This document shows, one piece after another, positions 1 to 23,647 of a stretch of 64,000 nucleotides of DNA. The translations under genes and the position numbers were made by a program. The stretch spans positions 113,017-177,016 of the forward strand of contig JAIVFH010000074.1 in the NCBI GenBank assembly GCA_025765595.1. Reading direction: 5' to 3'. Origin of the DNA: Obelidium mucronatum. Its lineage: Eukaryota; Chytridiomycota; Chytridiomycetes; Chytridiales; Chytriomycetaceae. How positions within the stretch are numbered: position 1 is the stretch's first letter; each line of letters opens with the position of its first letter. Under the pieces are notes generated by a model. It was not told where the DNA came from. It saw only the letters and a program-made list of their open reading frames with translations, and did no database searches.

Positions 1-1597
1 TTTTGTGAAGGAAAGATATTAGAAGCAATCCGATACCAGGGATATCAGCTTGATCGAAAGTGCATACCGATGGAAAACTGAGCCGCACGATCTGCGTGGT
101 CTGAAACACGTTCAGGTGCGCCAATGACACCCAAGAAGGCATCTCCAATTGTTTCAACTTTATACATTCCATGCCTTTTCGAAATCTTGTCGTATTCAAC
201 CCACATGTTGTTGAGGGATGCAAGCATGTCTTTTGTCTAACACGGCCTATTTAAAATCCACTGCACTGAAGGAATGCAACCAACCGAAGTTCTCTGAGAC
301 AGCGGCGTGAAGTTTGCAATATCAGAAAAGAAAACTGTGACAGAAGTATATTCTTCTGCATGCGCGTCCTTTCCACTCTTGAGTTGTTCCAAAACCCTTC
401 CAGCAAAAAGAATAAGTTCCAACCCCAAAAAATAAAAAAATAAAAAAAAAAGAGCGGCTAAACTCACCCTGACGGAATCAATTTTTCCAACAACTTGTCG
501 GAAGCAGCCATTTGCTCGTCCAGTGAAGAAGCATGGGTTTCCATTTGAACCACAACTTGGGTTTGCGATTCTTCAACAGAGTTGTTAACGAAAAGAAGCA
601 TCAAGAATATTTTCGCAATAAATTCTCCAATGCCATTGTTGATTTCTCCCATCTCAAACGACCATACGCCTCTGTTATTTTGTTTTTTTAAGGTGTCAGT
701 TTCAAAGGTCAATAGCAAAACCTAAAAAAATGCAATTGTCCCAAAACTTACGCTCGAACCATGTGCCATGAAAATGCAATATACGATAATGCAAACACAA
801 AAACATCTCGCGATCTACGAAGCGTCCACACGTCTACCCTGTTATCCACTTCTCCGTCAATAGCTTTCTGAAACATGGTGAGAACATCTTGAAGCGAGGC
901 CAAGAAGAAGACCATCGCAGTGGTCGAAAAAACTTCATTAAATGGATGACGCGCAAGGGATGAAAGAAATCCGAAAAGGATGCAGCCTTGGGAAGACACG
1001 ATGGCACGCCCAAGTGCCCAGTGATCTCCCGAAGTCAAAAGTCCCACGAAATAAACCCTAAAAAAAATTATTTAATTCCACAAGTGGAAGTTCTTATGGG
1101 ACGATAACTTACAAGTTTGCAATACCATGTGCCCATTCCAGGAATTTCAAAGAATCGACAGGGTAACCGTTCATATCAGTATAAGTGATACCAGCACGAA
1201 GATATTTGAGAATATTACTCGCAACAAGAACCGTGTTTGTCAAGATCAACACAAAAGTCATGCTTCTTTTCGCAGGGCTCCTTGTGCTAATGTAACCCAA
1301 ACCAGCAAAACAAACGGAAACGAAAAACACGACAGCCTGTCCCTTGTACACATAGTCAGAATAGCCGCGATCAAAGACTTTCGCTTTGTGGCTTCCATTG
1401 AGCCGTTCGTTCATGTTGAAGAGGACCGAGAAGGACCAGAAGGCAAAGTTGGCCCAGACAAACGCGAGTGGCTTGGCATCAGTTGTATTAACGCTGGGTG
1501 CTACCTCCTCTGCGCTCGAAATAAAGAAGGCGTCAGTCAATACAAACTGAAACTGATTGGCGACATGAAACTTACTGGTTTTCGAGAGGGCGGACAT
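1..1597 (-). CDS. Rhodopsin-guanylyl cyclase fusion, 3' end cut by window edge
   Basis: Light-driven cGMP synthase of the microbial-rhodopsin/class III cyclase fusion type. Exons I can join with phase kept: 1576-1597, 1113-1509, 752-1057, 468-671, 285-396, 68-236 (about 403 residues visible). Eight hydrophobic helices fit the extra N-terminal helix plus seven rhodopsin helices of this family. Helix C carries E132-W133. The last helix has GEFIAK, so K262 (bases 611-613) is the retinal Schiff-base lysine and E258 sits four residues before it, where most microbial rhodopsins have Asp. A coiled-coil-like linker (about residues 275-310) follows, then the cyclase start with the metal-binding FSDI and KVETIGDAF; Glu in that motif indicates GTP rather than ATP. 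The ATG at 1597 is followed by a strong GTAAGT donor, so the first coding exon is probably only 22 bases. The rest of the cyclase lies before base 1. Family is sure from motifs; spectral type is inference. Confidence 0.9.
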
Positions 1598-1836
1598 TGA
1601 TTCCTGTTTTCTTTTTTCGCAAGAGTCAAGAGATTTTCATGATTTCCCTTTTCCAACACTTGCAAAGGACAATCGATCGATAACAAAGAAAAATAATAAC
1701 ATTCTGGAAGATAAGACTAGATTGTTATTAAAGGGGTGCTATGGCAATTTGTAGCAAAGTTCAAAATGCATAGTGTTGGTTTTAATTTCCAAGTGCGGAC
1801 TGATTTGTAAAAACGAACGCTACACAATACCAACCA
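1598..1836. promoter_or_regulatory. Shared 5' region of the rhodopsin-cyclase and the NLR-like gene
   Basis: Only 239 bases separate the two divergent start codons (1597 minus, 1837 plus). The stretch is AT-rich with no clear TATA box or other motif I can name. Both promoters must lie here or inside the genes, so co-regulation is possible but not shown. Confidence 0.35.
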
Positions 1837-4800
1837 ATGTTGAGATCAAACACCAGTAAGAGACCCGTTGCGAGCCATTGTTGATAAATTGCTTACATGC
1901 TCTCTCAAAACACATACAGCAGCGTCGCTTCTCTCACGGCTGCAGCCACAAACCATTCCGAAAGATGCCGCAATCAACATCATCAAACGATCGCTTCCGC
2001 ATATCCAAGCAGGGATGGAAACAATGAGAGACCTTGCTACTCAGTCGAGCATCCCAGGCATTGAAGCCATCTTTACGCTGTGCATTGCAATCCTGTCTTA
2101 TTACAACAAGGAGTCTAAAACCTCTGAAACCATTACATCTCTCGGCGTCCTCATTGCAAACATTGCCAACTCCCTAACGCTTTTGATCCGGAACCCAGCC
2201 TTGGAGCCCCTAGTGGTTGGCCTCGAACACGTGTTAAATGAAGTCAAAACTGTCATTGAAGAGGAGCAAAAAGCACTGCAAGAAAAAGGATTCCACAAAG
2301 TCCTCCACGTTTTCACCAAAGCCGAAAAGGTGGAAAAGAAGGTGGTGGAGTATCATCAGCAGCTGGTGCGTGCTCGCAATGATTTGGATTTCAGGATCCA
2401 GGTTCAAACACACAACTCGATCGAGCAAATTGCAGAGAGCTTTATTCTGCAGCGAGTTACTGTGGAGGATGGGTTTGCGGGTTTGGCGGAACGGATTGGG
2501 ACTGGGAATGAGAAGATTATGACTTTGCTGGCGGAGATTTTGGAGACGCAGGTGACGCATGCTGTTCAACCGCCTTCAGGAGTATATGAATGTAAATATT
2601 CTTTTACCTTTTTTTGTTTGGTGTGGTCGGCTGGTTTGACTCCTTTGTTTTTAAGACTTGGGGAGTTTGATGGAATTGGACGGACAAGTAGATGAACGAC
2701 CGATCCTCAGCAAAAGTCTTACTGTTACATCAATACGAAAAGATATTCAAGAGTCTTATGACCCCAAGCTGAATGACTTTGATGGTTTCACGTTGAAGCT
2801 CAAATATACTGATAAAAAGACCAATCGCGAAAGAATCGTTGACGTTAATCCGAAAATGCTGGAAACATGCATCGGTTCAGGAATATATGATGATGTTGTG
2901 ATGTTGATTGAACGAGTAAGTTTTTTTCGACCTTTAATCTGCGACAGTTTTTTTTTTTTTCATTGTCATTTCTTGATAGAATCCAGCTGGAGTCGTGCCA
3001 TTCGACCATGGGGAACAAAAACCGAAATTGGTTATCAGCGAAGGGGATTCTTCGGTTGTCGTTTCCGTGGATTCATCTTTTGCCCACAGCTTCACTGAAT
3101 TGCAATCCGCTGTTGAGTGTTCAGATATTCTCATTTATGAACCATTTCACACAACTAAGCCTTTCCAAAAAAAACAGGTGAATTCAATGACAGATATTCA
3201 TATTACGACAGAGTCCACTGTGGTTACTGAAGGCACAAACTTTTCTGCCCCAGCACTTATTGTCGCCTTGAACTCGGCGACTTCGACGGACCAGCGAATC
3301 GAAGTCAATGTCCTTCATTCAGTCCCTTCTATTCAGGAAATACATTCTGATGCCGTTGAGCCACTTCAACCCGTCTCTTATTCTGATGTTCTTGAGTATG
3401 ATGTCATGATTTCGTTTTGGTAAGATACGACTATTCATTAGACGGCGTTTTATTTTTTAACGCTTTATCAGCGGGCAGTCTTCGAAAGATTTGGTAAACC
3501 TCGTTGTCGAAGAACTGCGCGCAAGAGGTCTTGTTGTGTGGTTTGATGAAGATGAAAGGCGCAACGATATGCTGAATCGGATGGCAGAGGCAGTAACGAA
3601 AAGCCATGTGTTTTGCATGTTTTTGAATCCAGAGTATCAAGTTGAGAGCGCGTTTTTCTTAACTCCTTTTTCTTCTTCTGAGCTTTTCTTAATTTCCTTT
3701 CACTAGCAATCTTATTACTGCCAACTGGAGTACGGATATGCAGCGGCCAAACATAAACCAATTGTTATTGCGTTGGATAGCTTGGGAGAGCTGAAACCTG
3801 ATGCTATGGTTGTGAAATTGGCCGACTCAACTCAGTCAAGTGAATGTCCAGATTTCACCAGTGAATTTTACGATGCAATTGATCTCTTACATAGCAACAT
3901 CCTTACTGCTTTGGAAACCGCCCCTTTCGAGATCATTTCTAGAAAATCGACTGTGAATGAGGCAATCGATTCTGGAAACGTTTTACATGATTGGTTGAAC
4001 CCAGTTGACTTTTCAGACGACTTGAAACGCTTCGAGGAAGCATATGTGCCACCCACAAGACAATGGATGCTTAAAAATCTTGTCGATTGGATAAATCGAG
4101 ACTCTCAGTCTGTGTTATGTCTTCTTGGAGGGGCGGGTGTCGGGAAGTCGGTGTTTGCTTGGTTGGCACATCACAATCCGCAGGAATACGACTGCCCAGC
4201 AATTTTCTTCTGTCGACACAATAGTGAACGGAAGAACAATGCCAAGAATGTTGTTTCCTCACTTGCATATCAGCTTGCTTTATATTCTCCTGAATATGCG
4301 GCCTACTTGTTTGAAGTCCAGTGGATGGAGGCTGCGGAGGAAGCGAGCAACCCGGATATGATTCCTGTAACTCAACGTGGAGATGCGTTCAAAAAATTGA
4401 TTCTTGATGGTCTTCACCATATACGAGTACCTGAGGGAAGGAACTTGCTTGTTATTGTAGATGCTCTGGACGAATGCGAGAAACCCGGCAGCTTGGGACG
4501 GATGAATCTGTTATTGACAATCAAGGACTACCACAAATCGCTGCCAAAGGGAATGAAGCTTCTGGTTACATCCCGTCCTGAAGAAGATATAGTCATTGCG
4601 TTGGAATCGATTCAACCAGATCAAATGTTGATTCAACAGCAGCAAGCGATACGTGATGTGTTTTTCTACTTGGAAGTCAAGTTTACAAAAATGTGTGCCG
4701 ACGCGAAAATGTTCTTCAGTTTGGATATGCGAGATGCCGCTGCAAGACTGGCTGATGCCAGTCAAGGTGTGTTTGTCTTTGCCGCACTGGCCTGCAATCA

Positions 4801-7675
4801 GCTATCAGAAGTTGATACCCAGGACCGTAACGGATTCAAAAAAGAATTTTTGGAAATGGTGGCGACCTTGTGCGAGGGCGGAGGAAATATGGATAGTATC
4901 TACGTTCCCTTTCTGGAAATGCATTACAAAGATGCGGGACCACAGGACTTTTCAATGTTCAAGTCTTTTATGGGTGTTGTTACGGCACTGTCGATTGCTT
5001 TGACGGGAGAATCAGTTGCACTTATTTTGAAGGTACCAAGCTATATGGTTGATGCAATTGTCTTAAGGGTACGTCAAACGCAGCTTTAGAAATAAGATTG
5101 TTAAATGTGCTTTTCAGATTGGATCGATTCTGCATGCTCCAGATGGCAGAATCCGTGTTCTTCATAAAAGTGTCAAAGATTTCCTTACCACACGTTGTGT
5201 GGATCCCCGGTTTGGATTTAGCATCAAAAAATACCACGACTTGATCACCGCACAATGCTTTAAACTGGTTCTACTTTCTTCGGAATACGATAACCCCGAA
5301 CTACGAGACTACGCCAATTCTTACTGGACATACCATTTGGCAAGTGGGAATGGAAACCACGATCATCTGGAAAATTTGAAGCTACTCGTCGAAGGCGACT
5401 GCTACCATTTGATTTCATGGTTTCAGGCGCTTCTGAGATCGAATCAACGCGTAGTAACCATTCAAAGCCATATTATGGGATATTTGGCAAAAATCAAGGA
5501 GTTCGAAACCCTTAAAGCGGAAGCCAATAGATTAGAGAGGATTTTTCAGTTGACTTTTTCTGTTTTTGGAGACACTTTTCGAGTTTCAGAGTGGGATTCT
5601 CTGGTTGACAAATTCCTAATGGACCTGTTCACGGTTCTTGAGGATGCCGCAGCAGCCGTAGATGGCGAGGATGTTGAGGAGGAGACTTATGATTTTTACA
5701 TTTCCTTCGAGTTAAGTTTTGCTATGCCTTCGGCCATTTTCCTGATAGTTCCTTTCAGAGCTTCGTCTGCCGACACAGCGTTGAGTCTATTGATGACCTT
5801 GGAAAGCGAAGGGCATCGCGCTTGTCTCATGAATCACGCACCCGATCAAGTCGCTGCAGCCAAAGATCAATCCCGTATTTTGAATTCCACAGTTTACCTT
5901 GTTCTTGTAACTCAAAAGTACGAAGACTCCAAGCAATGCCGTTTGGACTTTGCATACGCGAAATCTTATGATCGCGGAATGCTCGGAGTGTTTTTGGAAC
6001 CGGAACTTGGAGTTCGCGGCGATGCGTCCACTTGCTTGCGAAGGTACTGTTGGCGGCCAGACTAAACGCTTTTTCGTGGGAACTCATTTATTTATTTTTT
6101 CACACACAGAGAATTTTGGACAATGAGTTCCCTGGATCCTAAAGATTTCGAACACATTCCACTGCTGTTCAAATTGAAGTATGGGTTCCATTTTGCTTCT
6201 TGGGAGCAATTTCGTATGGGAATCGATCATTCCATGAAACGCAGTGCCATTAACAGAGGGTTCAATGACTCGATTGACATGATTGCAGGAACGAATCGAT
6301 ATAAGGAATTGTAAGAATTTATCTTGAAAAAGTCTTATCCGTGTTGTAGGTTAAACCAATCATATTGTCAGATTCACCTCTAATCGTGTCGATTTAAGCG
6401 AAGATGCAACAGCCAAATATATTGGAAGGCTGACTCAATTAAATTGGCTGTGAGGACACACACCTTGGATTGTTTAAAGTTTGCTTCACTGAAACACGGT
6501 TTGTATTAGCGATTTAAGAGAATTCGGTTTGAAGGGGGCCATTCCAAGCGAGATTGGAAGTTTGTCCGAGTTGACGAGATTGTAAGTATTCTACTGGTTT
6601 GTTTGACTATCCGCACTGAAATCGCGCAATTGCGTTTTCTATCAGGGATCTGGCTCATAATGAGTTGATTGGTTCGATTCCTGGAGAGCTTGGGGCACTC
6701 AAACAGCTGAATTGGATGTAAGTAATACTCTACTTCGTCAAATATTTCATGGGTTTATCTTATAAATATTCTTGCCTAATAATCAGGTTTCTTTCTGGAA
6801 ATATGCTTGGAGGGCCGATTCCTAGCGAATTGGGAAATCTTGCTAATTTGACAGTGGCTGTAAGAAATTTTAGATAAATATTAATTATGCGCCACTCACA
6901 GGAAAGATAGGGATTTGTCTTTTTGTCAATTGAGTGGTGCAATTCCGAGCTCTCTGGGAAACCTTTCACAACTCTTACAACTGTGAGGCAACGATCATTC
7001 AACATTGTTTTACTGAATTGAAACCATGTACTACAGTAACTTATCGTATAATAAGCTCAGTGGGGAAATCCCCGTTGAGCTGGCAAACTTATCAAAGTTG
7101 ACTAAACTGTATGTTTCCTGGATCCGTTCGTCATGCTTGCTCACGAAAAACTTTGTTTCATAGCAAATTGGACAACAATCAACTGACTGGAAGCATTCCA
7201 AAAGAATTTGGTCGTTTGTCCCGTCTAAGTCAAATGTGTGTTATCGATATGGAAATTAGGACAAAACATCTGATGTTGACTGTACAGGAACCTATCTTTC
7301 AACAACCTCACAGGCACGATTCCGATTGAGTTCGGAAGCTTAACTGGGCTTGTTCGATTGTATGTATCTATGCGAATTTAATAGTCAAGAACTAAACTGT
7401 TTTCCAGGAAACTCACACACAATCAATTGAGTGGAATAGTGCCCAACGAATTAAAGCGAATCAGAGATTTATCTCACTTGTAAGCTGTTTGTCTTTTTTA
7501 ATATGTGCTCGGTTGACCGGGTTTTCTGCTCTGTTATGATTACAGGTGGTTGGAAGGGAATTCCGAGCTTTTTGGCCCTCTCCCCAATATATCCTTTGGC
7601 GTTGATGTCAAAATCGGAGATACGAAAATAACACCAAGGCCGTCAATTTTTCGAACCATCTTTAGGAACAGTTAA
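1837..7675 (+). CDS. NLR-like receptor: helical domain - TIR - NACHT - TIR - LRR
   Basis: Nineteen exons join in phase: 1837-1855, 1920-2591, 2656-2915, 2980-3419, 3472-3640, 3707-5068, 5118-5710, 5759-6043, 6110-6310, 6372-6449, 6510-6581, 6646-6717, 6787-6859, 6911-6982, 7037-7108, 7164-7235, 7288-7359, 7408-7479, 7546-7675; about 1594 residues once one extra base in the 6787 exon is discounted. Residues 1-230 are helical and resemble the HeLo/MLKL-type four-helix cell-death bundle (FTKAEKVEKKVVEYHQQL). TIR1 (about 455-560) starts YDVMISF and keeps the CxxE of NADase TIRs (CQLEYGY). NACHT follows: Walker A GGAGVGKS (about 660), Walker B VIVDALDEC (about 768), sensor LLVTSRPEED, then a winged-helix-like VLHKSVKDFL. 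TIR2 (about 1165-1270) starts YDFYISF but has CRLD, Asp for the catalytic Glu. About ten LRRs of the plant LxGxIPxxLGxL type end the protein. By family it should be a ligand-sensing, oligomerising immune or allorecognition switch; the role here is inference. Confidence 0.85.
6510..7479 (+). repeat. One-exon-per-LRR array
   Basis: Eight consecutive exons of 72 bases (one of 73) each encode exactly one 24-residue leucine-rich repeat. All are cut at the same codon phase: every intron falls after the second base of the last codon. Introns between them are about 50-70 bases and differ in sequence. The exon at 6787-6859 has one base too many; without it the total coding length is divisible by three. 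Confidence 0.85.
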
Positions 7676-7715
7676 TTTGACCCTTTGGCCTGGTCAAAGC
7701 AGTTGAAAATAATAC

Positions 7716-7721
7716 AATAAA
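7716..7721 (+). terminator. Poly(A) signal after the NLR-like gene
   Basis: AATAAA 41 bases after the stop codon and 28 bases before the next start codon at 7749. Confidence 0.45.
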
Positions 7722-7748
7722 AACCAACTGAATTAAACATCATTCGGC

Positions 7749-8909
7749 ATGGGCCTGGACACGCCTTCGCCGCCAAACCTAAATGAAGCTTATGCGGTCC
7801 ACTTTTTGGTGGCGTATCTACTGGCAGTTGTGCTAGTGGCACTGACAGGCACCATTCTTGCCGAAACTACAACCCTCCTCTTCAGAGCGAGAAAAAAGCT
7901 GGCAGTCCCAAGAGCAGCACACGAGACCTTGCCGGTAACAGAAAACAAGAAGTCAGAAGAAGCGCAGCTTTTGGACGCGTGCGAAAAGCGACTGTCTGTG
8001 TTGGAATACGAAGTGAAGAATCTGAAGGGACTGATTCCTCTGCCTGCCAGTCACCTGCCGCCACTGCCAACTTCCATTTCTGTTTCAGAAAAGAGTGTCT
8101 CGCTTAGTGATGAGAGTGTCGTTGCTGCACCTGTATTAGCGCCAGTCCCGCCCCCTCCTCCTCCTCCTCCTCCTCCTCCACCGCCTCCTCCTCTCGCCCC
8201 TACGCTGTTTGCCACACAAATTCCAAAGCCGGTTTCTACAAAGAGCCAAATTGCTCCAGTCGAGAACGAACAAAACTCAATGTCAAATGTTCTGCAGGAG
8301 CTTTCCCGTAAAGTCAAGAAAATGCAACAAGTCGCGGCAGAAAAAAATCCATCGACAAAAAGGTGCGTGAAACCTTTCAGTTTTGACTTGAAGCTTTAAA
8401 CTCTTTGCTGATTGGGTTTTCATCAGGTCTCCACGATCTGCCTACTTGACAGAAAAAAGTGCATCGCCTGCGTCGACACGCGCGATAGCCCATTCACATC
8501 TCCGGTACTCGATGATGGATGACGAAAGAGAAGAAGAAGAATCTTCTCAATCGGACTTTGGCTCTGAGAATGACGAAAACACAACCCAACATCCTCCATC
8601 TGACTTGTTTAACGTGAAACCACCGTGGACCAAGCGCTCTTCCTCACGCATAGCAGGCATTCATGGTCCATCTAATCTCCCCGAGCCTGTGAAGCAACCG
8701 CTAGCTTCAAATGTAAAACAAAACGTGATTCCCGTAGAATTGTAAGTGCTTTATTCACAGTCATTTCCCACTCGCTTTTCTCCTAACGGGATAATAACAG
8801 GCCCAACCCGAAGTCTCTAATCAAGGAGATTCCTAGCATTCGCTTGAGGCGGACTCTTATCCCTCGGACACCCGGCGGAACTCCCCAAGACAGAATGCTG
8901 AAAAAATGA
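7749..8909 (+). CDS. Membrane-anchored proline-rich protein, unknown function
   Basis: Exons 7749-8362, 8427-8741 and 8801-8909 give 345 residues. One transmembrane helix lies near residues 18-40 (VHFLVAYLLAVVLVALTG), then a short coiled coil (about 75-95). A run of about 15 prolines follows near residue 137, with a second short helix around 180-200, an acidic stretch (DDEREEEESS), and a conserved-looking basic tail LRRTLIPRTPGGTP. Polyproline tracts of this kind bind profilin or SH3 domains in formin-like proteins. The LRRT tail loosely recalls WH2 or MTFR-type motifs, but I cannot assign a family. The start codon lies only 73 bases after the NLR stop. A role in tethering actin to a membrane is a guess. 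Confidence 0.7.
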
Positions 8910-9254
8910 GACTCTCTCAGCCAATCCAATAAAATTATGCGTTTGATCGATTGTCAGGTGATAGGACTCGAAAATGTTCTTGGCTTGAGCTTGGCTTGAG
9001 CCTGTGCCACCCGGACTACTCCAATAAATATTGAAAACAAAAGAAGCAATTCTGGAATTTGAAGAAAACTGACAGCTAAATTATAATTGTCACGGAGCGA
9101 TGCTATCCAGTTAGGTGGGTGGGTGGGGACTTGCTTTGTCAGCGAAAATTCCTTTGGCAGTCACAGGGGAAGTCACAGGGTCTCATAAGCCCGCGAATCC
9201 CTTCAAAAAGATCAGGTCTTGCTTCCCACTTGCCTTCAATTGAAACCCAGAAAA
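8910..9254. other. Intergenic, upstream of chitinase 1
   Basis: Holds the poly(A) signal of the preceding gene (8928-8933) and a short direct repeat CTTGGCTTGAG twice near 8980-9000. A purine-rich part with repeated GGTGG and TCACAGGG precedes the chitinase start. No gene seen. Confidence 0.5.
8928..8933 (+). terminator. Poly(A) signal of the proline-rich gene
   Basis: AATAAA 19 bases after the stop codon. Confidence 0.4.
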
Positions 9255-11060
9255 ATGAAAGCTGGATCGATTGTGTCCGCCGTTCTGATGGCGCTTGCTG
9301 CTGTCGGTGTCAATGCCAGAGCCGTTGGTCCTGATGGAAAGATCCTTGTTGCCTATTTGCCTTACTGGGACGGTATCAGAGCTTCGTACATGGACTTCAG
9401 CAAAGTCACCCATGTCAACTATGGTTAGAAAACACAGTTGATTCAGTTGATCTGTCCATCAATGCACTAATCCTTACTGCCCCATATAGCTTTTGCCAAT
9501 ATTGACTCTACTGGAGCCGTGACTCTTCCTGCTGCTGATACCTCCATCATTACCAACTTTGCCGCCGACTGTCATGCCGGAGACGCCAAGGCGATTGTCT
9601 CGATCGGAGGATGGGGAATCCAACCCTTCTCCACAGCATTTGCCAGTGCCGCTGGAATCAACACTTTTGTCTCCACCGTCAGCGCTTTGATGACAAAGTA
9701 CAACTTGGACGGTATCGACATTGACTGGGAATACCCTGGTGAACAAGGCGCCTGCCAGAACCCATGGAGCACTGCTGATACTGCGAACTTCTTGACTGCA
9801 TTGAAGGCTCTACGTGCTGCTATTCCAGGAAAGCTGATTACTGCTGCCCCACCTGCGTACCCATGGAAAGACGCGACTGGACAGCCATCCAAGGATCTTT
9901 CTGCTTACGCGCAAATCTTTGACTTTGTGAATTTGATGGTAAGGTGTTTTGATGCATGCGATGTCATACAACTAAACGCGTTCGCCAGGCTTACGATCTC
10001 AACGGTATCTGGGGAACTCACACTGGGGCCAGTGCTCCATTGATCCAGGATGTTGGAAACCTCGGAACCCCAGGCGGTAACGTTCGTGATGCCGTCAAGT
10101 CCTGGCTCGCTGCTGGATTCCCGGCCAGCAAGCTTGCGCTTGGTACTCCCTTCTATGGACACTACATGAGCCCAGTCTCTCCAATGACCAACAACAAGGA
10201 CTCTGACATCAACGTTCCTGTCATCAAGGGATCTACTGGTCACGATTGTGCTGGAGCTGGTCTCGGTGGGACTTTCACCTTCGTCCAGGTCTACCCATAC
10301 ACTCAAGACACCACTGGTGAATGGATCAAGCACTTTGATACCTGGACCCAGACCCCATGGTTGTACAACCCAAAGACCAACATTTTCATCAGTTACGATG
10401 ACTCCAGATCGATTGCTATTAAGGCTGCTTACGCTGCGTGCATGGGTTTGAAGGGAGTCATGACTTGGTAAGTTTTCGTGACGTTCTCTCTGATTTCTAG
10501 TTTGGTTGCGTTGTATTCATTGGGTTTTATGTGCACAGGGAGGCCACTATTGACGGTGGCGCTTTGATGCCGGCTCTTTCCACCTTCTTCACTGCCGCAG
10601 CTGGATCTCCAGGTGTTGACTGTGTTGCCCAAGTTGCCAGCATCACCTCTGTCCCACAACCATCCCCAACGAACATTGGTCCAGCTCCATCTGACCTTAC
10701 CACACGTTGTGGTTCTTCTTGGGCTGATGCAAACACCAACTGCTACGCCATGTGTTCCTCCAACGCACAATGTGGTGTTGGTCAAAACTGCTACAACGCC
10801 TTAAACGCGTGCTCCAGCGTATGTGTTCGTCTATTCGGAGATATGTGGGAATCTTTTTACTCACCATAATTTATGCAGAACCAACACCCAGGACCTGGTG
10901 AATGTTTCCTCCCATGGGTTGCCTCTTATACGTACAGTGCTGGAGTCGAGGTATCCTACAATGGACAGAACTGGAAGGCTTCATACTACTTGAACCCAGG
11001 AACTGTACCAGGATCTGGTACCAACGGATGGGTTTCTACTGGTGCCTGCTCCACTGGTGG
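9255..11060 (+). repeat. Left arm of the chitinase inverted repeat
   Basis: About 1.8 kb, near-identical to the reverse complement of about 17715-19515, coding and intron sequence alike. Compare the intron after the second exon in both copies. Similarity stops inside the Thr-rich linker and just upstream of the start codons. Confidence 0.75.
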
Positions 11061-11505
11061 TTCAAGCTCCAAGACCACGACCACCACAACCACAACCACG
11101 GCCAAGCCAACTACATCAACCACTACCACAACTACTACAAAACCAACTACATCCACCACTACAACGACCACCACGAAACCGACCACCTCCACCACCACAA
11201 CTACTACAACAAAACCAACTACATCGACTACCACGACGACAACAACCAAGCCAGTTACATCATCAACGACCATCACGACTACCAAATCAACTACTACTAC
11301 TACAAAGCCAACGACATCCACGAAAACCACCACTACGACTACCACAACAACCAAAAAGGCCAGTACCACAACTGCGGCAGGTACTAATGTTGTTAATGGA
11401 GCACCTTGCGCCACTTTTGGAGCATGGGCGTGCTCAAACGCATGTATTTGTAACTATGCAACTGCTGGCCTTGTCTGGCAATGTACTGGTGTCAGTGGCT
11501 GCTGA
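9255..11505 (+). CDS. Secreted GH18 chitinase with CBM5/12 module (chitinase 1)
   Basis: Hydrolyses chitin with a retaining, substrate-assisted mechanism. Exons 9255-9423, 9490-9938, 9989-10467, 10539-10818 and 10879-11505 give 667 residues. A signal peptide (about 1-22) leads into the GH18 barrel. The catalytic DGIDIDWE is at about residues 130-137 with E137 as the acid, and SIGGWG is the upstream barrel motif. A six-Cys module (about 424-458) and a CBM5/12-type chitin-binding module (CFLPWVASYTY, about 465-515) follow. Then comes a Thr/Lys/Pro linker of about 100 residues, presumably O-glycosylated, and a small Cys-rich tail. The gene is nearly identical, introns included, to the inverted gene at 16936-19515 up to the linker, but its tail differs and it has one chitin-binding module fewer. 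Likely used on its own wall during zoospore release or on chitinous substrates. Confidence 0.93.
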
Positions 11506-12628
11506 TTTTGCGTGATTTTTTTTAGTGTTACCAACATCAGGAAACAGCAGGAATGCATGCGCATAGATATAAGCATATATTCGTGTATTCAAATGTATTC
11601 AAATGTCTGGTATGTGCTACACCTGACCCCCCCCAGTTTGGCGCACATGCCAAATGTGAAACATGTGCTAAAATGTGCGTCATATACAGGAAATGTATGT
11701 GTGGAATGCTGAACTCCTGTACAATATTCCAAGAATATGAGATGCATTTTTCAAATTCCTTATGTAAGTGAGAGGCAAAAGGTTTCCTTACCTCATGGGT
11801 CTGCCAACCATGAGGTACCTGCTGTAACTGATCGCAGCTGGGAACCGAACCTGGTGCCTCTGGATTGCTAGGCTTCATCATTACCAACTACGCTCATTGA
11901 CGCATCTTCTTTAACACTTCTTGCTGGAGGACTTATCAGTTTCTAATATTCAATTCCAATTTGTCGTTTGCACTTTTGCAACAGTACTGGCCTTTACCTA
12001 AGGCTAATCAAAAGGAAACCGTGTGCTTTATCTTGGAACCTATGTTTGGTTCAATTATTGTGCCAGTGTTTTCCATCGGGGAAGATGGACAAAAAGGCAG
12101 TACTACTGCCTTGTGGAAAGGGTTTATTTGAGCCCATAGGCTGAAAAGTACGCTGACTCTGTCATAGAAGATTAAAAGTTGTGATAAATTTAGTATGCAA
12201 ATAAATGAGAACATATTTGAAAGAAACAGATATGGGCAATGTCAAATGTATTTAGAATGCTGAAGTTACAGCTTTATATATGTGGTAAATGTGGCATTCA
12301 TTTTGGATCTATTTTGTCTCTATTCGGAATATGCGCTATATCCCAACCATACGACACCATACATTCATTCAATTTGAAATGGATCATCAATACATGTCGA
12401 CTGTATTCCTTTGATTTCAAATGTTGGGTATTCATCTGCATGTATTCAAATACAAGTGGAATTCAAGAAATGTATGTTTACTCTACAGCCAGTTTCCAGA
12501 TGAACAGTAAACTAGTTGAAATAAAGGAAACCATCTATGTATGATTGATGATGTTAGGCTCCTGAGGTTACTTTGTATGTTTATGGAGTGAAGGGGTAAA
12601 CAACTTACCATTTTTTCTCCGTTTTGAA
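11506..12628. other. Intergenic between chitinase 1 and the ABC transporter
   Basis: 1.1 kb, AT-rich, no convincing gene. It contains scattered GTATTCAAATG-type repeats (near 11585-11605 and 12440) and, at 11780-11905, a tRNA-derived element described separately. Short open frames here have no family features. Confidence 0.5.
11780..11905 (-). repeat. tRNA-derived (SINE-like) element with pol III boxes and a hairpin
   Basis: Read on the minus strand, GAGCGTAGTTGG (about 11885-11896) fits the pol III A box. GGTTCGGTTCC, about 30 bases further on, fits the B box (consensus GGTTCGANTCC). The spacing is that of a tRNA gene, but no acceptor stem pairs and the anticodon arm is poor, so this is not a functional tRNA. 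A perfect 10-base inverted repeat, TACCTCATGG with its complement around a 9-base loop, lies just downstream. Best read as a decayed tRNA gene or a tRNA-derived SINE. Confidence 0.45.
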
Positions 12629-15600
12629 ATGGACTTCATTGTTGCTGATCATGAGCAAGTTGTTGGACAACCACCGGGAACTCTCTTGGATACCACTTTC
12701 CCCGTAACAGTCGAAGCAAAGAACTTGTACGTCAAAGTACGTGGCAGGAAGAAGGAGGAACGTGCTATCCTCAATGATATCTCTTTGAATGTGCCTGCTG
12801 GCAAACTCATGGCTATAATGGTAAGCCGCTGAGGATATATGGAGCACCCCCTTTTAATGCCGTTTTTTGATCAGGGCAGCTCTGGCAGCGGCAAAACTAC
12901 GCTGTTGAATGCATTGGCCGGTCGGGCAAAGGGCATCACTGGGCAAATCACTTTCAACGGCCAGAATCAAGAAAAGTTCCTCAAGAATGGCTTAGTTGCG
13001 TATGTCGAACAACATGATAACCTGCTTCCGTACGTCTCTGTTAGAGAAACACTGCGCTACGTTGCTCGTTTGAGATTACCAAGAGACATGCCAAAGTCAA
13101 AGAAGTTTGAGATTGTCGAGGCGGTAATCCTCGAATTGGGCCTAAAAGAATGCGCTGATACCCTTATTGGAGACGATTGGCATAAGGGGATATCGGGAGG
13201 AGAAAGGCGGCGGGTCAGGTAAAAAATTCTGGGACATGACAGGCCAAACAAACATTGATAACAAAAAACACAACCAGTGTCGGAGTCCAGCTGCTTACGA
13301 ATCCATCTGTAATTTTCTTGGATGAACCGACTACAGGACTGGACGCATTTAACGCAAGATCTTTGATTGAAACCCTACTCAATTTAGCTCACAACTTGAA
13401 TCGAACCATTATCCTATCCATCCACCAGCCTCGATCCGACATTTTTGGATATTTTGACCAAATTACATTGCTCGGTCGTGGCGGTCTGCTTACTTTCTGT
13501 GGAACTCCCCATGAGGGCGTTGAATTCTTTCAGGGGCTTGGGTTTCGTCTTGGAGAGGGAATTAATGGCGCTGATTACTTGGTTGATGCTGTTGCAATCG
13601 ATGATAGGACTGAAGCCTCAGAGATGGAAACTACGAATAATTTGAACCGTGTTGTAGAAGCCTTTAGATCAACGGGACAAACCACAACAACAATTCCAGC
13701 GGAAGAAGTGCCGTATTCTGGCAATCGCTTTACTCAACCCAAAAGTGCTGATTTCTTTGAACAAGTCGCAATTATTTCGAGAAGAATCCTTGTCAACATG
13801 TGGGAAGATCGATTGATGCAATGGGGATCATTTTTGAACGTAGTTGTACTGGGCATCGTTCTTGGCGCCATGAATTACAAACTTGACGAAAATCTCAACT
13901 CCATATTCGCGAGAAAATCCATTGGGTTCTCAATCAATTGTGTGCCAGCATATTGCGGTCTTTTGTTTATCACGTACAAACTCTCCTCTGAGTAGGTTCT
14001 TCTGGGTTGTTTTCGGCAACTATCTAGTCTAACTTCAACGTCTAAGGATGAGAGTTTTCGATCGCGAAAGAAGGGATAAGATGTATAGCGTGCCTGCATA
14101 TCTTGTCGCTTGGTTGTCTCTCCACTTTGCTTTGTATGCCATTCTTGCTATAATATATTCTGCAATCATGGTATGTGAGCTCGTCAACGGCTCTTGAAAA
14201 TCAACGCTAATATTTGCTCAATAAATAGTATTTCATGGTCGGCCTAAGGACAGACAATTTAGCATACCACTTTGGTATTTTGGTAGTTGATACGATTTTG
14301 GTTCAATGGGTTACTGTTGCTTCTGCCTTGCTGTGTGTATCCTTCACTAGAGATTATGCATCGGCTTCTTTGATTGCGAGTTAAGTTATCTTCCCTTGTT
14401 TCACATTGGTTTTTAAATTTTGTTCTTTTTTTCCGCAGATCTCTCGGTCACTATGCTGTTTCTTGTTGGTGGATTCCTGATTGTTCAGTACCCGTATACG
14501 TTCGATGGATGAAGTACTTCTCGATGCCCTACTATGCGTATCAGATTTTCGCGTACAACGAATTCAAGGACAGACAATTTGCCTGCCCTTCCATCCCAGA
14601 AGGCTCTCCATCCCGTGTACTTTGTGACGGCAACAATGTTCTCGCGAGCATCGGTTTCGATAACCCTCTGCACGTATCTTTTCTTGGGTTTATTGCTTTA
14701 ATCGTGGGAACTATTCTTGTTGCTGGATTGGTTCTCCACTTTCTTCCAGCAACAGGCGTAAAACAAGCCGAAGCAGTTACGCAACCAGATGAATCCAAGA
14801 AGAAAGGCGCTGACAAAAAGGAGAAAAAAGATGCAGGCTCCGAGGCGATTGTCGACATGGATCGAACCAAAACACCCAGCATCTCTGTGACGCTAAAGGA
14901 CTTGACTTTTGCACTCGAGCCGACGAAAACATCCAAATTTGCCTCCTTGACCAAGACTCAAGCGCATCAAACTGTGATTTTGGATTCAATTACTGCTAGT
15001 TTCCCTGCTGGGCAGTTAACTGCTGTTCTTGGAGCTTCCGGAGCTGGAAAGAGTACATTGTTGAGTTTACTTCAAGCGCGTCCTCTGAGTCTCCCATCTC
15101 ATTTGAAGCCGAAGCAGTCTGGATCTATTCTCCATAATGGAGTTCCGTTGGAGGAGCATTCTGTTGGCGGGTGTACTGCCAGTGTTCGTCAGGACGATAC
15201 CCATTTACTCCCTGCCTTGACTGCTCGCGAAACATTGGTTTACGCAGCTTTGCTGAGGCTGCCACAGTCATGGTCGAAACAGCGAAAGTTGCATCGCGCT
15301 GACGAAGTTTTGGTGGAACTGGGGCTGAAAGATTGTGCCAATACCCTGGTTGGTGGAGGCGATGTGAAGGGGCTCTCTGGTGGTGAAAAAAGGCGTCTCA
15401 GTGTTGGATTGGCAATGTTGATGGATCCCGCCATCTTGCTATTGGATGAACCCACCTCGGTAACATTTTTTGTGGAGTTTATCATTCTACCGTTTTCCTA
15501 AAAAAAAACGCCATCGAAAAATTAGGGACTTGACTCTGCCGCAGCAAGAAACATGATGATTACATTGCAAAATATTGCAGCTAAAGGACGCACGGTGGTT

Positions 15601-16819
15601 TGCACAGTTCATCAACCGAGATCCGATATTTACCCATTGTTTGATCGCGTTTTGTTGCTGGCTCGTGGTGGAAGGGTCGTTTACGAAGGACCTGGTGTGC
15701 AACTTGTTCCTCATTTGGCAGAACACGGCCACTGCCTCCCGACCTTGACCAATCCTGCTGATTTTGCTCTAGACGTAGCGTCAGTGGATTTGAGAAATAT
15801 GCTAGCCGAAAACATGAGTCGAGAACGAGTTTCGATTCTCATTGACGCTTGGAAGGCTCGTTCATTAAATCATTCGTCGGACCAGGAACCCGATTCGGAA
15901 CTGGCGGGGAAGATATCTGCGTTGTCCTTGATGCGAGAGTTGCCATTCGTGGAGGCCTTACTACTTTTAATGTCTCGAAGTTTCTTGAACCTTACTCGGC
16001 AACCAGGACTTGCCATTTCTCGTGTGATGAACGTCTTTGGTGGCGCTTTGATATTCATGATCTTTTATGTAAAGATTGGAACAGATCAATCTGGAGTGAA
16101 CTCAAGACTCAACTTGTTGGTGAGGTTTAAGTTAGGAGTTTGCTTCATTTTTGTTTGAGTTAATCAAAATGATACAATAGCAACAATCCCTTAGTATGAT
16201 GAACAGCGGCATGATCACGTGTATATCCATGTTCCCCCAAGAACTTCTCCTATTCAAGTTTGAATATCAAGACCGCGCTATATCCACGCAATCTTTTTTT
16301 CTCGCATACACGCTTATTGAACTACCATTTGAATTGATTGCTTCTACATTATTTGCAATCTTTTCGAGATATATCACGGGTCTTCAATTGAATCCAGGGT
16401 ACCTGATTTTGGCGCTGATTGGTGTTGTGTCTGCGGGCGAGAGTATTGGAATTGCATTCAGCGTCTTTTTCTCCAAGCCTGGCTTTTCGCTGCAATTACT
16501 CTCTTTAATTCTTACCCTTATGGTGTTGAGTTCGGGGTTGATTAGCGTCGCTATGCCAGTGTTCCTGACCAATTTGAATTACTTATCTGTGGTTCGATAT
16601 GCAGCGAGAACTATTGCAGCTGCGGAATTCCTGCCTGACATGATTATTGATTGTCCCGTCGACACGGAGTGCGCGTATCATACTGGAACGGATGTGATGA
16701 AGTTGTTTGGGTTTCCAGTGGGTGACAACCATTTGGCGTTCAATATGGTTGGCTTAGTCATATGTGTAGTCTTGTATCGCGTTATTGCCTTTGGAGTCAT
16801 GAAGTGGTTGTATCGTTGA
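12629..16819 (+). CDS. Full-size ABCG-type transporter
   Basis: Two half-transporters in tandem, each nucleotide-binding domain before its membrane domain (White/ABCG order). Exons 12629-12820, 12875-13218, 13278-13991, 14047-14170, 14229-14379, 14439-15459, 15526-16119 and 16181-16819. NBD1: Walker A GSSGSGKTTLL, signature ISGGERRR, Walker B VIFLDEPTTGLD. NBD2: GASGAGKSTLL, GLSGGEKRR, LLLDEPTSGLD; both sites look catalytically complete. Membrane segment 1 includes FDRERRDKMYSVPAYL, typical of ABCG. With the exon at 14439 the frame breaks once near 14485; adding one base there gives about 1259 residues. Using an acceptor ending at 14488 instead restores the frame but drops about 17 residues of a membrane helix (1242 residues). 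Probably plasma membrane; substrate unknown (lipids, sterols or drugs in the family). Confidence 0.9.
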
Positions 16820-16837
16820 TTTCAGTTACCGCAACCC

Positions 16838-16843
16838 AATAAA
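16838..16843 (+). terminator. Poly(A) signal of the ABC transporter
   Basis: AATAAA 19 bases after the stop codon, in the convergent gap of 116 bases before chitinase 2. Confidence 0.45.
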
Positions 16844-16935
16844 AAGTAAATTTCGGTTTTCTTCAAAATGCCATTTTAAAAACATAGACGCGCGGGCTTT
16901 ATTTTTCTTTCTATATCCAAATTTTCTTACAATGC

Positions 16936-19515
16936 TCAACAGCCCACGTACCACACGATCCAAGAGGATGCCAAACAGTAGTACATGGTTCCAGCAGAAC
17001 ATTCATTCTTACCGGCAGTACATGGTTGACCCACCACTGGACCGCCAGAAGCAGCTGTAGTGGTGGCCGCATTAGTAGTGGTCGTTGTTGTCGTTGTTGG
17101 CTTGACAGTGGTAGTGGTGGTTGTGGTGGTCGACTTTGCAATAGTAGTTGTAGTAGAAGTAGCTGGGTTACTGGTAGTGGTAGTGGTAGTGACGGTGGTG
17201 GTTGGCTTGGACGTGGTAGTGGTAGTGGTGGTGGTAGTTGATCCACTCCCTCCACATGGGCCAACAACCTTCCAAGCAGCAGATGGTGGGACATCAGTCG
17301 ATCCGGCCCACCAGTTTGCAACGTAGTTGACGTTTTGGTAAGAAACTTGAGCTCCTCCATTGTATGTTGACGATGCACTCCAAGCAGGGTAACAGTTGGA
17401 TGCCACAGTTGTGGTTGAAGTAGCAGCAGTTGTAGTGGTAGTGGTTGTGGTAGAGGTGGTTGGCTTCAAAGTTGTTGTAGTCGAAGTTGTGGTTGGTGCG
17501 GTGGTTGTAGTAGTTGTTGTCGTTGTTGGAGCAGCGGTGGTGGTGGTGGTGGTGGTTGATTGAGTCGTAGTTGCCTTAGTCGTGGTAGTTGTAGAAGTGG
17601 TTGGAACAGTTGTAGTCGTTGTGGTGGTGGATGTGGTTGGCTTGGCAGTGGTAGTGGTGGTTGGCTTAGCGGTGGTGGTGGTTGTTGTTGTGGTTGTGGT
17701 CTTGGAGCTTGAACCAGCAGAACATGCACCTGTAGAAACCCATCCATTGGTACCAGATCCTGGAATAGTTCCTGGGTTCAAGTAGTAGGCAGCCTTCCAG
17801 TTTTGTCCATTGTAGGAAACTTCAACGTCTGCACTGTACGTGTAGGAGGCAACCCATGGGAGGAAACATTCACCAGGTCCTGGGTGTTGGTTCTGGAAAA
17901 AAGGAATAGTCAATAAACACATTCTCATCCAGTCAATTGACGAATACTCACGCTAGAACAGGCATTCAAAGCATTGTAACAGTTTTGACCAACACCACAT
18001 TGGGCGTTCGAGAAGCACATATCATAACAGTGGGTATTGGCATCAGCCCAGGAGGCACCGCAACGCGACGTAAGATCGTTTGGAGAAGGTCCAACGTTTG
18101 TTGGGGATGGCTGTGGGACGGAGGTGATGCTGGCGACTTGGGCAACACAGTCAACTCCTGGAGTTCCAGCTGCCGCAGTGAAGAAGGTGGAAAGAGCTGG
18201 CATCAAAGCACCACCGTCAATAGTAGCCTCCCTTTCAAAGAAAAGTGGATGAATACAACCAAACTGAAGATCGAAGAGAAAGTCAAGAAAAGTTACCAAG
18301 TCATAACTCCCTTCAAACCCATGCATGCAGCGTAAGCAGACTTGATGGCAATAGAGCGCGAGTCGTCGTAACTGATGAAAATGTTGGTCTTTGGGTTGTA
18401 CAACCATGGGGTCTGGGTCCAGGTATCAAAGTGCTTGATCCATTCACCAGTGGTGTCTTGAGTGTATGGGTAAACTTGAACAAAAGTGAAAGTTCCACCG
18501 AGACCAGCCCCAGCACAATCGTGACCAGTAGATCCCTTGATGACAGGAACGTTGATGTCAGAGTCCTTGTTGTTGGTCATTGGAGAGACTGGGCTCATGT
18601 AGTGTCCATAAAAGGGGGTACCCAAAGCAAGCTTGCTGGCTGGGAATCCGGCAGCGAGCCAAGACTGGACGGCATCGCGAACGTTACCGCCTGGGGTTCC
18701 GAGGTTTCCAACATCCTGAATTAATGGAGCACTGGCCCCAGTGTGAGTTCCCCAGATACCGTTAAGATCGTAAGCCTGGCAGAAACGCGTTTAGTTATAT
18801 GAAATCGCATGCATCAAAACACCTTACCATCAAATTCACAAAGTCAAAGATTTGCGCGTAAGCAGAAAGATCCTTGGATGGCTGTCCAGTCGCGTCCTTC
18901 CATGGGTACGCAGGTGGGGCAGCAGTAATCAGCTTTCCTGGAATAGCAGCACGGAGAGCCTTCAATGCAGTCAAGAAGTTCGCAGTATCAGCAGTGCTCC
19001 ATGGGTTCTGGCAGGCGCCTTGTTCACCAGGGTATTCCCAGTCAATGTCGATACCGTCCAAGTTGTACTTTGTCATCAAAGCGCTGACGGTGGAGACAAA
19101 AGTGTTGATTCCAGCGGCGCTGGCAAATGCTGTGGAGAATGGTTGGATTCCCCATCCTCCGATCGAGACAATCGCCTTGGCGTCTCCGGCATGACAGTCG
19201 GCGGCAAAGTTGGTAATGATGGAGTTATCAGTGGCAGGAACGGTTACAGATCCCGTGGAGTCAATGTTGGCGAAGGCTAATTGAAGGGGCAGTGGGTGGG
19301 AATTTAGGACATTGATTGATCAAATGAAGCCACTATGTTGACTTACCATAGTTGACATGGGTGACTTTGCTAAAGTCCAAGTAGGAAGCTCTAACATTGT
19401 CCCAGTAAGGCAGATAGGCAACAAGGATCTTTCCATCAGGGCCAACGGCTCTGGCATTGACTCCAACGGCAGCAAGCGCCATCAGGAGGGCGGACACGAT
19501 CGATCCAGCTTTCAT
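16936..19515 (-). CDS. Secreted GH18 chitinase with two CBM5/12 modules (chitinase 2)
   Basis: Inverted paralogue of chitinase 1. Exons 19347-19515, 18828-19276, 18297-18775, 17952-18231 and 16936-17892 have the same first four lengths (169, 449, 479, 280) as chitinase 1 and give 777 residues. The signal peptide, DGIDIDWE with catalytic Glu 137, the six-Cys module and the first CBM5/12 module match chitinase 1 almost residue for residue. It then has a longer Thr-rich linker interrupted by a second CBM5/12-like module (CYPAWSASSTYNGGAQVSYQ, about 640-690), more linker, and a different Cys-containing tail. The extra module should raise affinity for crystalline chitin. Introns are also alike, so the copies are young or kept alike by gene conversion. 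Confidence 0.93.
17715..19515 (-). repeat. Right arm of the chitinase inverted repeat
   Basis: Mate of the left arm; the arms are separated by about 6.6 kb holding the ABC transporter. Identity was judged by eye from aligned stretches, not computed. Confidence 0.75.
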
Positions 19516-19976
19516 AGTAATGTTAAGTTTTTTTTGCTAGAGGGAAAAGAGGCAAGGAGCTCCCCCTTCTTAAAGGGATTTTCTCAAAGCGCGGGCTTGG
19601 GCTTTTCTCCCATGACCGGACACATGACTTGAAATTTTTCAAGGAGAGCAAAAAAGGTGTAATTGTCTCACAAAGCAAGTCCGTGGATGCTCTGTTGTGT
19701 TTCTGCGAGTTTTTTCAAGTGCTTTGTGGCTGAGAGAATGTTGGATCTTTGGCTGGGATGATGAGCGAGGCTGAAATTCGGCTGGCGGATTTCGAGTCAC
19801 AGGGTGGCACCTGGCAAGCCCACATGTCATTGAAATCAACAAACCAAATCGATCGAGAAAAGAATCAAACCGAGGATGATATCCATATAAAATGGGGCTT
19901 TTAATCGTACCAATTGAAGACTGACATTGTTCAACACAACAAAACGCTACTGAAATAATTATGCTAAGGAACACAC
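19516..19976. other. Intergenic upstream of chitinase 2
   Basis: No gene seen. Between 19560 and 19625 a segment on the minus strand (AAGCCCGCG with AATCCCTTTAAGAAG) loosely repeats one found before chitinase 1 (near 9190-9210). It may be a conserved chitinase promoter piece. The rest is AT-rich. Confidence 0.4.
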
Positions 19977-20929
19977 TTATTTTCGCTGATATTCCAAAAG
20001 ACAATCCAGAGAATTATTCTCCAAAAAATCGTTGACATTCTCCACAGACTGATGCCCAGCAGGCCAAAAGTACTGGAGATCCACCTTCTGGCGCTGATAC
20101 ATGTCCACCAAGTATGAGTCACTTTTAATAACCTGCACAGCCCCAAGCACCTGACTCATGATTTTGAGCATATGCAAGTTCTCTGCATCGTCCTGGATCA
20201 AGGCAGAAAGAATCTTTGCGAGGAATAAAAGCCCGAAATCGGATTCGCATTCGGTAAGTAACACGCCGTAAATGATGCCAAAGTATTTGCAAACGTTGGG
20301 TGTTGCTGCTGCAGTTTTTTGAATGATTGGGGTAATTTTTTCGAGACTTTTTTGCAAATTATAGTTTTTGGGTTGGTTAGAAAGAGAGAATATGAGAGAA
20401 AAAAAACAGGGTTTGGGTATTACCAGGCTTGAACATCTGAAGCTGAGACAGAATACGCCTTGATTAATTCTGGAAACAGTTTCGCTGTTCTCGCAACAGC
20501 CGCGCCGCCTCTTTTAATGGCTTCCTCAATCAACATAAACAGCAACCCGTCCACAAATTCTTGACGCGTCGATTCCCCATCCGCAGCGTATTCCTCAATC
20601 TTTTGCATAATTACAGCGTGATTGAAAGATTGAAACCAGTTGGATGACACGGCATTGATCCGTTCAGTGACAACATGAGTAGTTTGATCGGAATCAACTG
20701 GGCTTTGTGGTGGCAGTGAGAGTGGTGGGACTTCAGCGAGCAGTTCTCCTGTCAGCTTTGGCTTTGGCGGCAATGCTGGCTTTGATGCCGCGGTGGAGTT
20801 TTGTTCCACTGTATCATCGCCGCAGAGTGTTGCTGTGGAAGACGCTACAATAAACCCAATTGCAAGTGGTTTCGAGACGCCGTTTTCGTTGACTTCGTTG
20901 ATCCGGATAATGTTTTCAGAGTCTTCCAT
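19977..20929 (-). CDS. Unknown protein, shorter member of a tandem pair
   Basis: Exons 20424-20929 and 19977-20346 join in phase for 291 residues. The N-terminal third is variable with a KPALPPKPKL proline motif. The C-terminal two thirds (about 105-291) are helical and shared with the neighbour at 21077-22711: both have WF(Q/R)SF/EFN, GG(A/V)AVA(R/H)TA(K/R)L, YFGI(I/L)YG and QRQ/KRQ...DLQ(Y/Q)FWP. The intron falls at the same place in both. The helical fold faintly recalls MIF4G/MA3-type repeats, but I do not recognise it and assign no function. Confidence 0.75.
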
Positions 20930-21076
20930 TTGGCGATCAAAGGTATTTCCGTTGAAGAATGGAAGTTGTTTTTTTTTTGGCGTGTTGTGGGATTGTCAAG
21001 AGTAATTTGAACTTTGTTCTTGACGAGAAAAAAGAACAGAAAATAGAAGGGGGAAAAGATAGTAATTTTTTTTATT

Positions 21077-22711: not shown

Positions 22712-22902
22712 GTTCAACTGTGACTGCGTGTGTGATTTACAAGAATAATCGAAAATCTCGGTGTGTGGGTTTATTTTGGTGTATTTGTTGTGATTGTCAA
22801 AAAGACCCTGATAAACTGTGACTTGTTAAAGGCAGCGAGGCACGAAACAAGAAGGACAAAAGTTTTACAGAGTCAGACAAACAATAAGAAAAGAAAAAGA
22901 AA
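22712..22902. promoter_or_regulatory. Divergent 5' region
   Basis: 191 bases between the start codons at 22711 (minus) and 22903 (plus). Purine-rich just before 22903 (AAAGAAAAAGAAA). No named element. Confidence 0.3.
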
Positions 22903-23645
22903 ATGGCCGGCATCAATGCTTCCCCCCTCTTTGCCAACGCCGCCACCAACGCGCTTGATGACTTCAACACGAATGCGGTCGCAGCCGGCGGCGTCGATGC
23001 GTGTTTTGTTGCCGTGGAACACGGCTACGCGTCCGCTGGCGGCGTTCCGCTGGCCACTGCCGCCGAGGCGGGGCGCGCCGAAATGCGCGCGGTCGAGGCG
23101 ACGGCCCAGGCGGCGGGCGCGGCAGTCGCGCCGCCGTGGTTTGCCGCCTGGGCCGCGAACCAGTTTGCCACCCTGGCGGCCCTGCAAGCACAACTCCACA
23201 ACGTCACAGTCTCCCGCAGAAACGAACAGGTGAACACTGTCTACTTTAGACTTTGGTAATGATTCCATCGTTATCTGACTGGCTCTTGCCTTCCATTGCT
23301 TATTTTCAGGCATTCGCCTGGCCCAACAGCACTGAAATCATGAAGCCAGCCAAAACCGTGCCTGGATTCGGTCAAGTACCACTGGCCGCCATGGTTCCAC
23401 CGCGCGGGATACCAGCTGCAGTTGCGGCAGTCCTTGGAGCCCCACCGCCACCACCAGGTATCTTGGCAGTGCCTCCGCAAGTATTCCCCTTCTTGGCCAT
23501 GTCGCATCAAGTACCACTTACCCAAGCCGAAATCGGGTATTTGGCCATGTTTTACAACAACTCGTTTGAGATTGTTGTTGGGGATGATCACGCTGCTCAA
23601 GTTTTGAAGTTTAAGAGATTTTTGATGGGTTTGAGTTCAAATTAA
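22903..23645 (+). CDS. Small Ala/Pro-rich protein, unknown
   Basis: Exons 22903-23229 and 23310-23645 give 220 residues. The first exon is strikingly GC-rich and encodes many Ala and Gly residues (for example AVEATAQAAGAAVAPPW), predicted helical. The second has a PPPPPG turn and a hydrophobic tail ending in FKRFLMGLSSN. No signal peptide or transmembrane helix is evident. An AATAAA lies directly after the stop (23648-23653). I do not recognise a family. Confidence 0.65.
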
Positions 23646-23647
23646 AC

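Follow-up and report, generated by a model that had tools for sequence, protein, structure and literature searches.

The window, the whole stretch of 64,000 nucleotides analysed here, covers the final 64 kb of contig C74 (177,016 b) from Obelidium mucronatum (Chytridiomycota, Chytriomycetaceae), in an assembly of 48.3 Mb and 694 contigs in which two haplotypes are present. It contains a gene at 1837..7675 on the forward (+) strand, the strand of every receptor feature described below, composed of 19 exons and 18 introns and ending with a TAA stop codon at 7673-7675. We set the exon junctions by hand on the genomic sequence, and all 18 introns are bounded by GT and AG. The start at 1837 depends solely on a 19-nt exon 1, and an in-frame ATG lies further on at 2015. 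The LRR part is built of one repeat per exon, each of 72 nt and phase 2, with the exception of exon 13 (6787..6859), which has 73 nt instead of the 72 of its neighbors, so that the frame slips ahead of exon 14. The initial annotation had described a single 19-exon reading path; the exons and splice sites held up, but in the window haplotype the path is broken at exon 13. Pfam scans were consequently run on two translation pieces, split at the slip.

The other haplotype of the window is found on contig C442, which aligns to 3519-11536 at 98.1%, 12503-14458 at 98.3% and 14459-24454 at 93.8%, and from which 11537-12502 is missing; the end of contig C278 aligns to 3-3817 at 96.7%. C442 lacks the slip at exon 13, but one of its LRR exons further on has a small insertion, and small indels occur close to the end of that contig. 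These differences may be assembly errors or true variation, two origins that look alike here. The reverse strand (-) at 1-1636 encodes a membrane protein whose class III cyclase domain matched Guanylate_cyc at 3e-10; this gene diverges from the receptor gene across a gap of about 200 bp. Within the stretches fetched around the two paralogs introduced below, neither this cyclase gene nor the downstream gene adjoins the paralog. Two further stretches, 9255-11536 and 17429-19515, form a related pair, the first of which we take, from motifs in its translation, to be a chitinase-like gene.

Domain order of the receptor gene

The gene encodes, in order, an all-helical domain, an alpha/beta region, a TIR domain (TIR1), a NACHT domain, a winged-helix-like region, a second TIR domain (TIR2) and LRRs. 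Profile searches of the translation matched the Pfam families NPHP3_N, NACHT, TIR_2 and TIR as well as LRR families. As in NOD-like receptors (STAND proteins) broadly defined, an NTPase with both Walker motifs is joined to C-terminal superstructure-forming repeats. On the N-terminal side of the NOD, TIR1 is of a known effector type, while no Pfam family scores over cut-off in the helical domain ahead of it.

The helical domain (exons 1-2, 1837..2591) has homologs in the Obelidium paralogs L014 and L015 and the Siphonaria protein P0002. Its best Pfam match was MLKL_N (E 0.027, 14.4 bits, cut-off 27), listed for three of five family members, two of these being alleles, and other helical families scored alike. 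A search against PDB sequences returned chance-level helical proteins, with MLKL not among the profile matches, and a protein search of 6366 candidates returned P0002 as its sole match and nothing outside the receptor family. The AlphaFold2 model, built from a two-row alignment, reached a pLDDT of 44.3. Support for the HeLo-type cell-death bundle proposed in the initial annotation is weak, and we describe the domain as family-specific and possibly MLKL-like. The conserved region that follows (2656..3393) matched no Pfam family and showed strand-strand-helix patterns in the low-confidence AlphaFold2 model of the annotated paralog protein P0003 (pLDDT 50.4), a model that left TIR2 and the LRRs unresolved.

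TIR1 (exons 4-6, 3394..3860, right-hand limit approximate) begins at residue 456, behind these two regions. TIR_2 matched the spliced translation at 2.8e-20 in two stretches, the best at residues 459-544. Matches of TIR1 to solved TIR structures were weak but consistent, ranging from E 5e-4 (7uxr, the best) to 1, with 23 distinct PDB sequences at E ≤1, the highest-ranking of them being almost all TIRs. The glutamate of ...YYCQLE, within SYYCQLEY at 3710-3733, aligned under that of ...TWCLNE in plant SNC1, which we take to be the catalytic residue of NADase TIRs. It is conserved in four of the five members (the window gene, P0002, P0003 and L015) and replaced by valine in P0001.

The NACHT/NOD, of NPHP3_N type, spans 4031..5068. 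As the initial annotation had it, both Walker motifs are in place (Walker A, GGAGVGKS, at 4127-4150; Walker B, LLVIVDALDE, at 4445-4474), and NPHP3_N (4.1e-23, 82.8 bits, cut-off 24.8) and NACHT (1.5e-6, 28.6 bits, cut-off 26.7) both scored over cut-off in the spliced translation. It is followed by the winged-helix-like region (5118..5687), which contains the motif LHKSVKDFL at 5160-5186.

TIR2 (5688-5710 and 5759-6043) and a conserved tail (6110-6310) occupy 5688..6310. In the spliced translation TIR (PF01582) scored over cut-off at residues 1165-1240 (3.6e-5, 24.1 bits, cut-off 21.3). Scanned alone, the TIR2 of the window gene fell short of both TIR_2 (E 2.8e-5, 25.0 bits, cut-off 28) and TIR (20.3 bits, cut-off 21.3); across four members TIR_2 scores ran from 25.0 to 28.6 bits, one of the four over the cut-off, and no PDB sequence matched TIR2. 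Our main reason for accepting the domain is its recurrence, with its place unchanged, in all family members seen. Lining up the motif by eye, we find an aspartate in the window gene (KQCRLDF, 5931-5951) at the position equivalent to the TIR1 glutamate, and none of the five members has a glutamate there (D in the window gene and P0002, N in P0003 and L015, I in P0001). Thus, of the two TIR signatures first noted, one is firm and the other is weak by itself but recurrent across the family, and the putative NADase type, assigned from one conserved glutamate, extends to TIR1 and not to TIR2. In P0003, residues 909-977, which lie in TIR2, also matched the Thoeris type III protein ThcB4 (8.8e-5, 21.5 bits), far under cut-off.

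The LRR domain (exons 10-19, 6372..7675) opens with a partial repeat and closes with a capping repeat, with eight repeats of 24 residues between them; the original estimate of about ten LxGxIP repeats was a fair count. In the C-terminal translation piece LRR_1 (2.9e-19), LRR_8 (3.9e-18) and LRR_4 all scored over cut-off.

Related genes in Obelidium and Siphonaria

With each window domain as a tblastn query, the same domain order was found at two other Obelidium loci, L014 (C74:82-88 kb) and L015 (C70:37-43 kb), whose identity to the window gene is 66% and 51% in the NACHT and 41% and 40% in the helical domain, respectively. The other haplotype of L014 is held by contig C278 (95.2% over 6005 columns). 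L014 corresponds to the annotated O. mucronatum protein BDR26DRAFT_652645 (P0003), 1191 of whose 1193 residues lie on it in 15 exact pieces; the helical domain of P0003 is found upstream of the annotated start.

Most of this order also occurs in two proteins of another chytrid, Siphonaria sp. JEL0065, both of whose records are labelled UNVERIFIED_CONTAM. P0002 contains the helical domain, TIR, NACHT and TIR2, and stops where the LRR exons would begin. P0001 contains a protein kinase (5.1e-39) in place of the helical domain, followed by TIR, NACHT and LRRs; the HKD and DFG motifs of a kinase are visible in it. Its record is marked partial and includes a self-duplicated part, and an assembly error may therefore account for its far end. 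LRRs and the helical domain are thus each present in four of the five members, and NACHT, TIR and LRR occur together in the annotated proteins P0003 and P0001. These two were also the only proteins with an LRR accession beside NACHT or NPHP3_N among the over-cut-off Pfam matches of the proteins listed (30 in one search and 24 in another), and the roughly 8,000 best word-sharing protein candidates, a length-limited set, included no family member beyond Obelidium and Siphonaria. With three Obelidium genes and two Siphonaria proteins, the proposed NLR-like receptor of chytrids is supported in its TIR, NACHT, additional TIR and plant-type LRRs, while its cell-death bundle is a putative element.

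In the genome as a whole we found 10 NACHT matches, 28 TIR_2 matches (23 over cut-off, haplotype copies counted) and at least 157 LRR_8 matches (150 of the 988 first-look candidates having been scored). Some of the TIR_2 matches lie near TIR-NACHT genes on C84 and C319 (L011, L012 and L013). Four others, at C36:113-127 kb (L021 and L022), alternate with P-loop ORFs (GS.GSGKSTLVKQL), from which we predict that TIR genes and GTPase-like genes are clustered there.

Repeat diversity, selection and alternative readings

Mean identity among LRR repeats was 0.45 in the window gene and 0.50 in L014, within the range of 0.44-0.53 seen in six non-NLR LRR control regions (five of them independent, as two are haplotypes 97% identical); by this measure neither gene carries a recent LRR array. 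In the C70 paralog it was 0.83. Tandem Repeats Finder resolved an array there (L015:6596-7982) whose 133-nt unit, one LRR exon plus its intron, is present in 11.2 copies with 84% matches, and whose 11 LRR exons are all of 72 nt.

Diversity in this array is concentrated at codons 1, 3, 4 and 6 (0.47, 0.70, 0.45 and 0.47, against 0.13 in introns), which are the x positions of xLxxNxL. All 12 sites at these codons vary, compared with 18 of the exon's 60 other sites (Fisher 5.6e-6), and 23 of 60 intron columns are variable. Nucleotide diversity (pi) was 0.52 at the four codons, 0.087 in the rest of the exon and 0.129 in introns; the four codons exceed the introns fourfold (p 2.5e-6), while the lower value for the remaining exon sites does not differ significantly from that of the introns (p 0.074). 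Because the four codons were chosen after their diversity had been seen, their rank of 1 among 8855 four-codon sets is not independent evidence. Their agreement with the exposed positions of the LRR, which we take to be the usual ligand face, is. Variation at codons 1 and 4 falls on the first two positions (0.47-0.76), with the third near intron level at 0.18, which points to replacement changes and not to blanket mutation. The third base of these codons is T in 10 of the 11 units, giving an NNT look that ordinary selection explains. At codons 3 and 6 the third positions vary as well (0.75 and 0.55), so that pS at the four codons is raised too, to 0.37 beside a pN of 0.56. Codons 22 and 23 are also variable (pi 0.35 and 0.29). 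The pattern persists (pN 0.52 and 0.04) when the two degenerate units among the 11 are left out.

We consider it probable, at roughly 0.6, that these genes constitute a family of intracellular fungal NOD-LRR receptors with a plant-type LRR sensor that act in immunity or allorecognition. The strongest hint of such a function comes from the C70 paralog with its variable LRR array, and not from the window gene itself. The LRRs of the latter are old and diverged (exon identities 0.38-0.57), as might be expected if the genes instead encoded STAND regulators of, for example, development or chitin sensing, with the LRRs as a scaffold and no immune role. Tandem TIRs with a NACHT are nevertheless typical of immune receptors. 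The variable ligand-face codons of C70 likewise match the regime described for Podospora allorecognition NLRs (PMC4986451), and we regard a non-immune regulator as unlikely.

Comparison of haplotypes bears on whether the genes are still functional. The P0003 gene (pS 0.058, pN 0.0082, 1190 codons) and the N-terminal part of the window gene (pS 0.0486, pN 0.0076, 461 codons) are under purifying selection between haplotypes. The L014 LRRs are themselves conserved (pN 0.0092, pS 0.0859, 144 codons), a pattern that, like the absence of a recent array in L014 and the window gene, counts against the receptor reading favored above. The remainder of the window gene differs from C442 by one synonymous and one other change in 831 codons, and is too nearly identical to be informative on selection. 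The 73-nt LRR exon of the window haplotype and the separate small indels of C442 could be taken as signs of decay, in which case this haplotype's copy would be shedding the LRR tail and the family would be a relic. Yet pN lies well below pS in two of three genes, and single-base slips may have arisen in assembly; decay of the receptor thus seems quite improbable.

That two or more neighboring genes, a TIR-NACHT-TIR gene and then an LRR gene, were read as one is very improbable: Siphonaria P0002 is annotated as stopping before the LRRs and the genome is rich in LRR genes, but at each of three paralogous loci the LRR exons lie behind TIR2 and on its strand, exon phase is maintained over the join, and P0003 and P0001, annotated independently of the window, each cross it as a single protein. 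The break between 6043 and 6372 that the initial annotation had feared is bridged in both, each running from TIR2 into the LRRs. The recurrence of the arrangement in three Obelidium genes and two Siphonaria proteins makes fusion of two neighboring genes unlikely, and the architecture of the window gene is, as judged from these sequences, not a chance join.

Proposed mechanism and comparison with known systems

If these genes are immune or allorecognition receptors, their LRRs would bind a non-self or modified-self protein, upon which the NACHT module would exchange nucleotide and oligomerize. TIR1 domains brought together in this way could cleave NAD+ or produce a nucleotide signal, and TIR2, with no glutamate, may sit between NOD and LRRs as a brake or a scaffold. 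The module at the N-terminus, helical in most members and a kinase in one Siphonaria homolog, would relay or execute the response, most likely regulated cell death. That a helical domain and a kinase can take each other's place suggests that the executors are modular.

A broader account is more tentative, and we hold it at somewhat less than even odds: fungal NOD-LRR receptors may have arisen separately from those of plants and animals, from a chytrid TIR-NACHT core and the genome's own large LRR pool. They would have two executors (an NADase TIR and an exchangeable MLKL-like bundle or kinase), a dead TIR2 as scaffold, and a ligand face renewed by amplification of an exon-intron LRR unit, with four codons per repeat diversifying via selection or aimed mutation.

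The published record bears on how much of this is new. A 2010 survey reported fungi to be without TIR or LRR combined with NACHT (Soanes and Talbot; PMC2939053), a 2014 study found neither LRRs nor chytrid NLRs (Dyrka et al.; PMC4986451), and a 2025 review again identified no LRRs in fungal NLRs (PMC12881547). TIR domains in chytrid NLRs are already in print (PMC9815663), a small group of fungal NLRs with TIR is mentioned in another paper (PMC10197012), and a 2026 preprint found fungal TIRs in one chytrid alone, Rhizoclosmatium globosum (PMC13142454). We found no LRR-bearing fungal NLR in open-licence PMC texts; one scan, which used LRR profiles on 122 proteomes, ten of them from Chytridiomycota, may list a case (PMC12258605). 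The initial annotation had suggested an undescribed class of receptor. Since chytrid TIR-NLRs have been printed (PMC9815663), what is new is the order as a whole, together with an LRR sensor and a second TIR. A conserved LRR-bearing NLR family in two chytrid genera contradicts the view that fungal NLRs are, as a general rule, without LRRs, and it bears on whether NOD and LRRs were combined in evolution on more than two occasions.

Within the same genome, the TIR-NACHT genes on C84 and C319 have a TIR followed by a NACHT, with 31-43% identity to the window gene in NACHT pieces, and in the stretches fetched they showed no TIR2 match and no LxGxIP run. Animal NACHT-LRR proteins of the NLRP3 type have NACHT and LRRs in common with the window gene, and the NLRP3 NACHT was among the Foldseek matches (7alv, E 2.7e-6); they carry a PYD or CARD where the window gene has two TIRs, and the LRRs of the window gene are of the plant-type LxGxIP kind. 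Plant TNLs (RPP1, RPS4 and L6) likewise run from TIR to STAND NOD to LRRs, and the TIR1 glutamate aligns with theirs. RPP1 chains were the best Foldseek matches of the poor P0003 model, at a TM of 0.10-0.12, and lend weak support. In contrast to the NB-ARC of plant TNLs, however, the window gene has a NACHT/NPHP3_N, and NB-ARC was not among its Pfam families at E ≤1; its first TIR is internal, starting at residue 456 behind an extra N-terminal module, and a second TIR lies between NOD and LRRs.

Fungal NLRs such as HET-E and HET-D of Podospora have HET, HeLo-like or Goodbye-like N-termini and WD40, ANK or TPR repeats, whereas here we find true TIRs, LRRs and a helical domain of uncertain class. 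The WD-repeat NLRs of Podospora are described as combining high internal conservation with selection on four positions per repeat (PMC4986451, PMC12222747). The window gene shares their fungal kind of NACHT, and the C70 paralog shares sensor repeats with four variable positions; it is seemingly a fungal LRR receptor in the regime of the Podospora WD40 allorecognition genes, in which contact sites are diversified.
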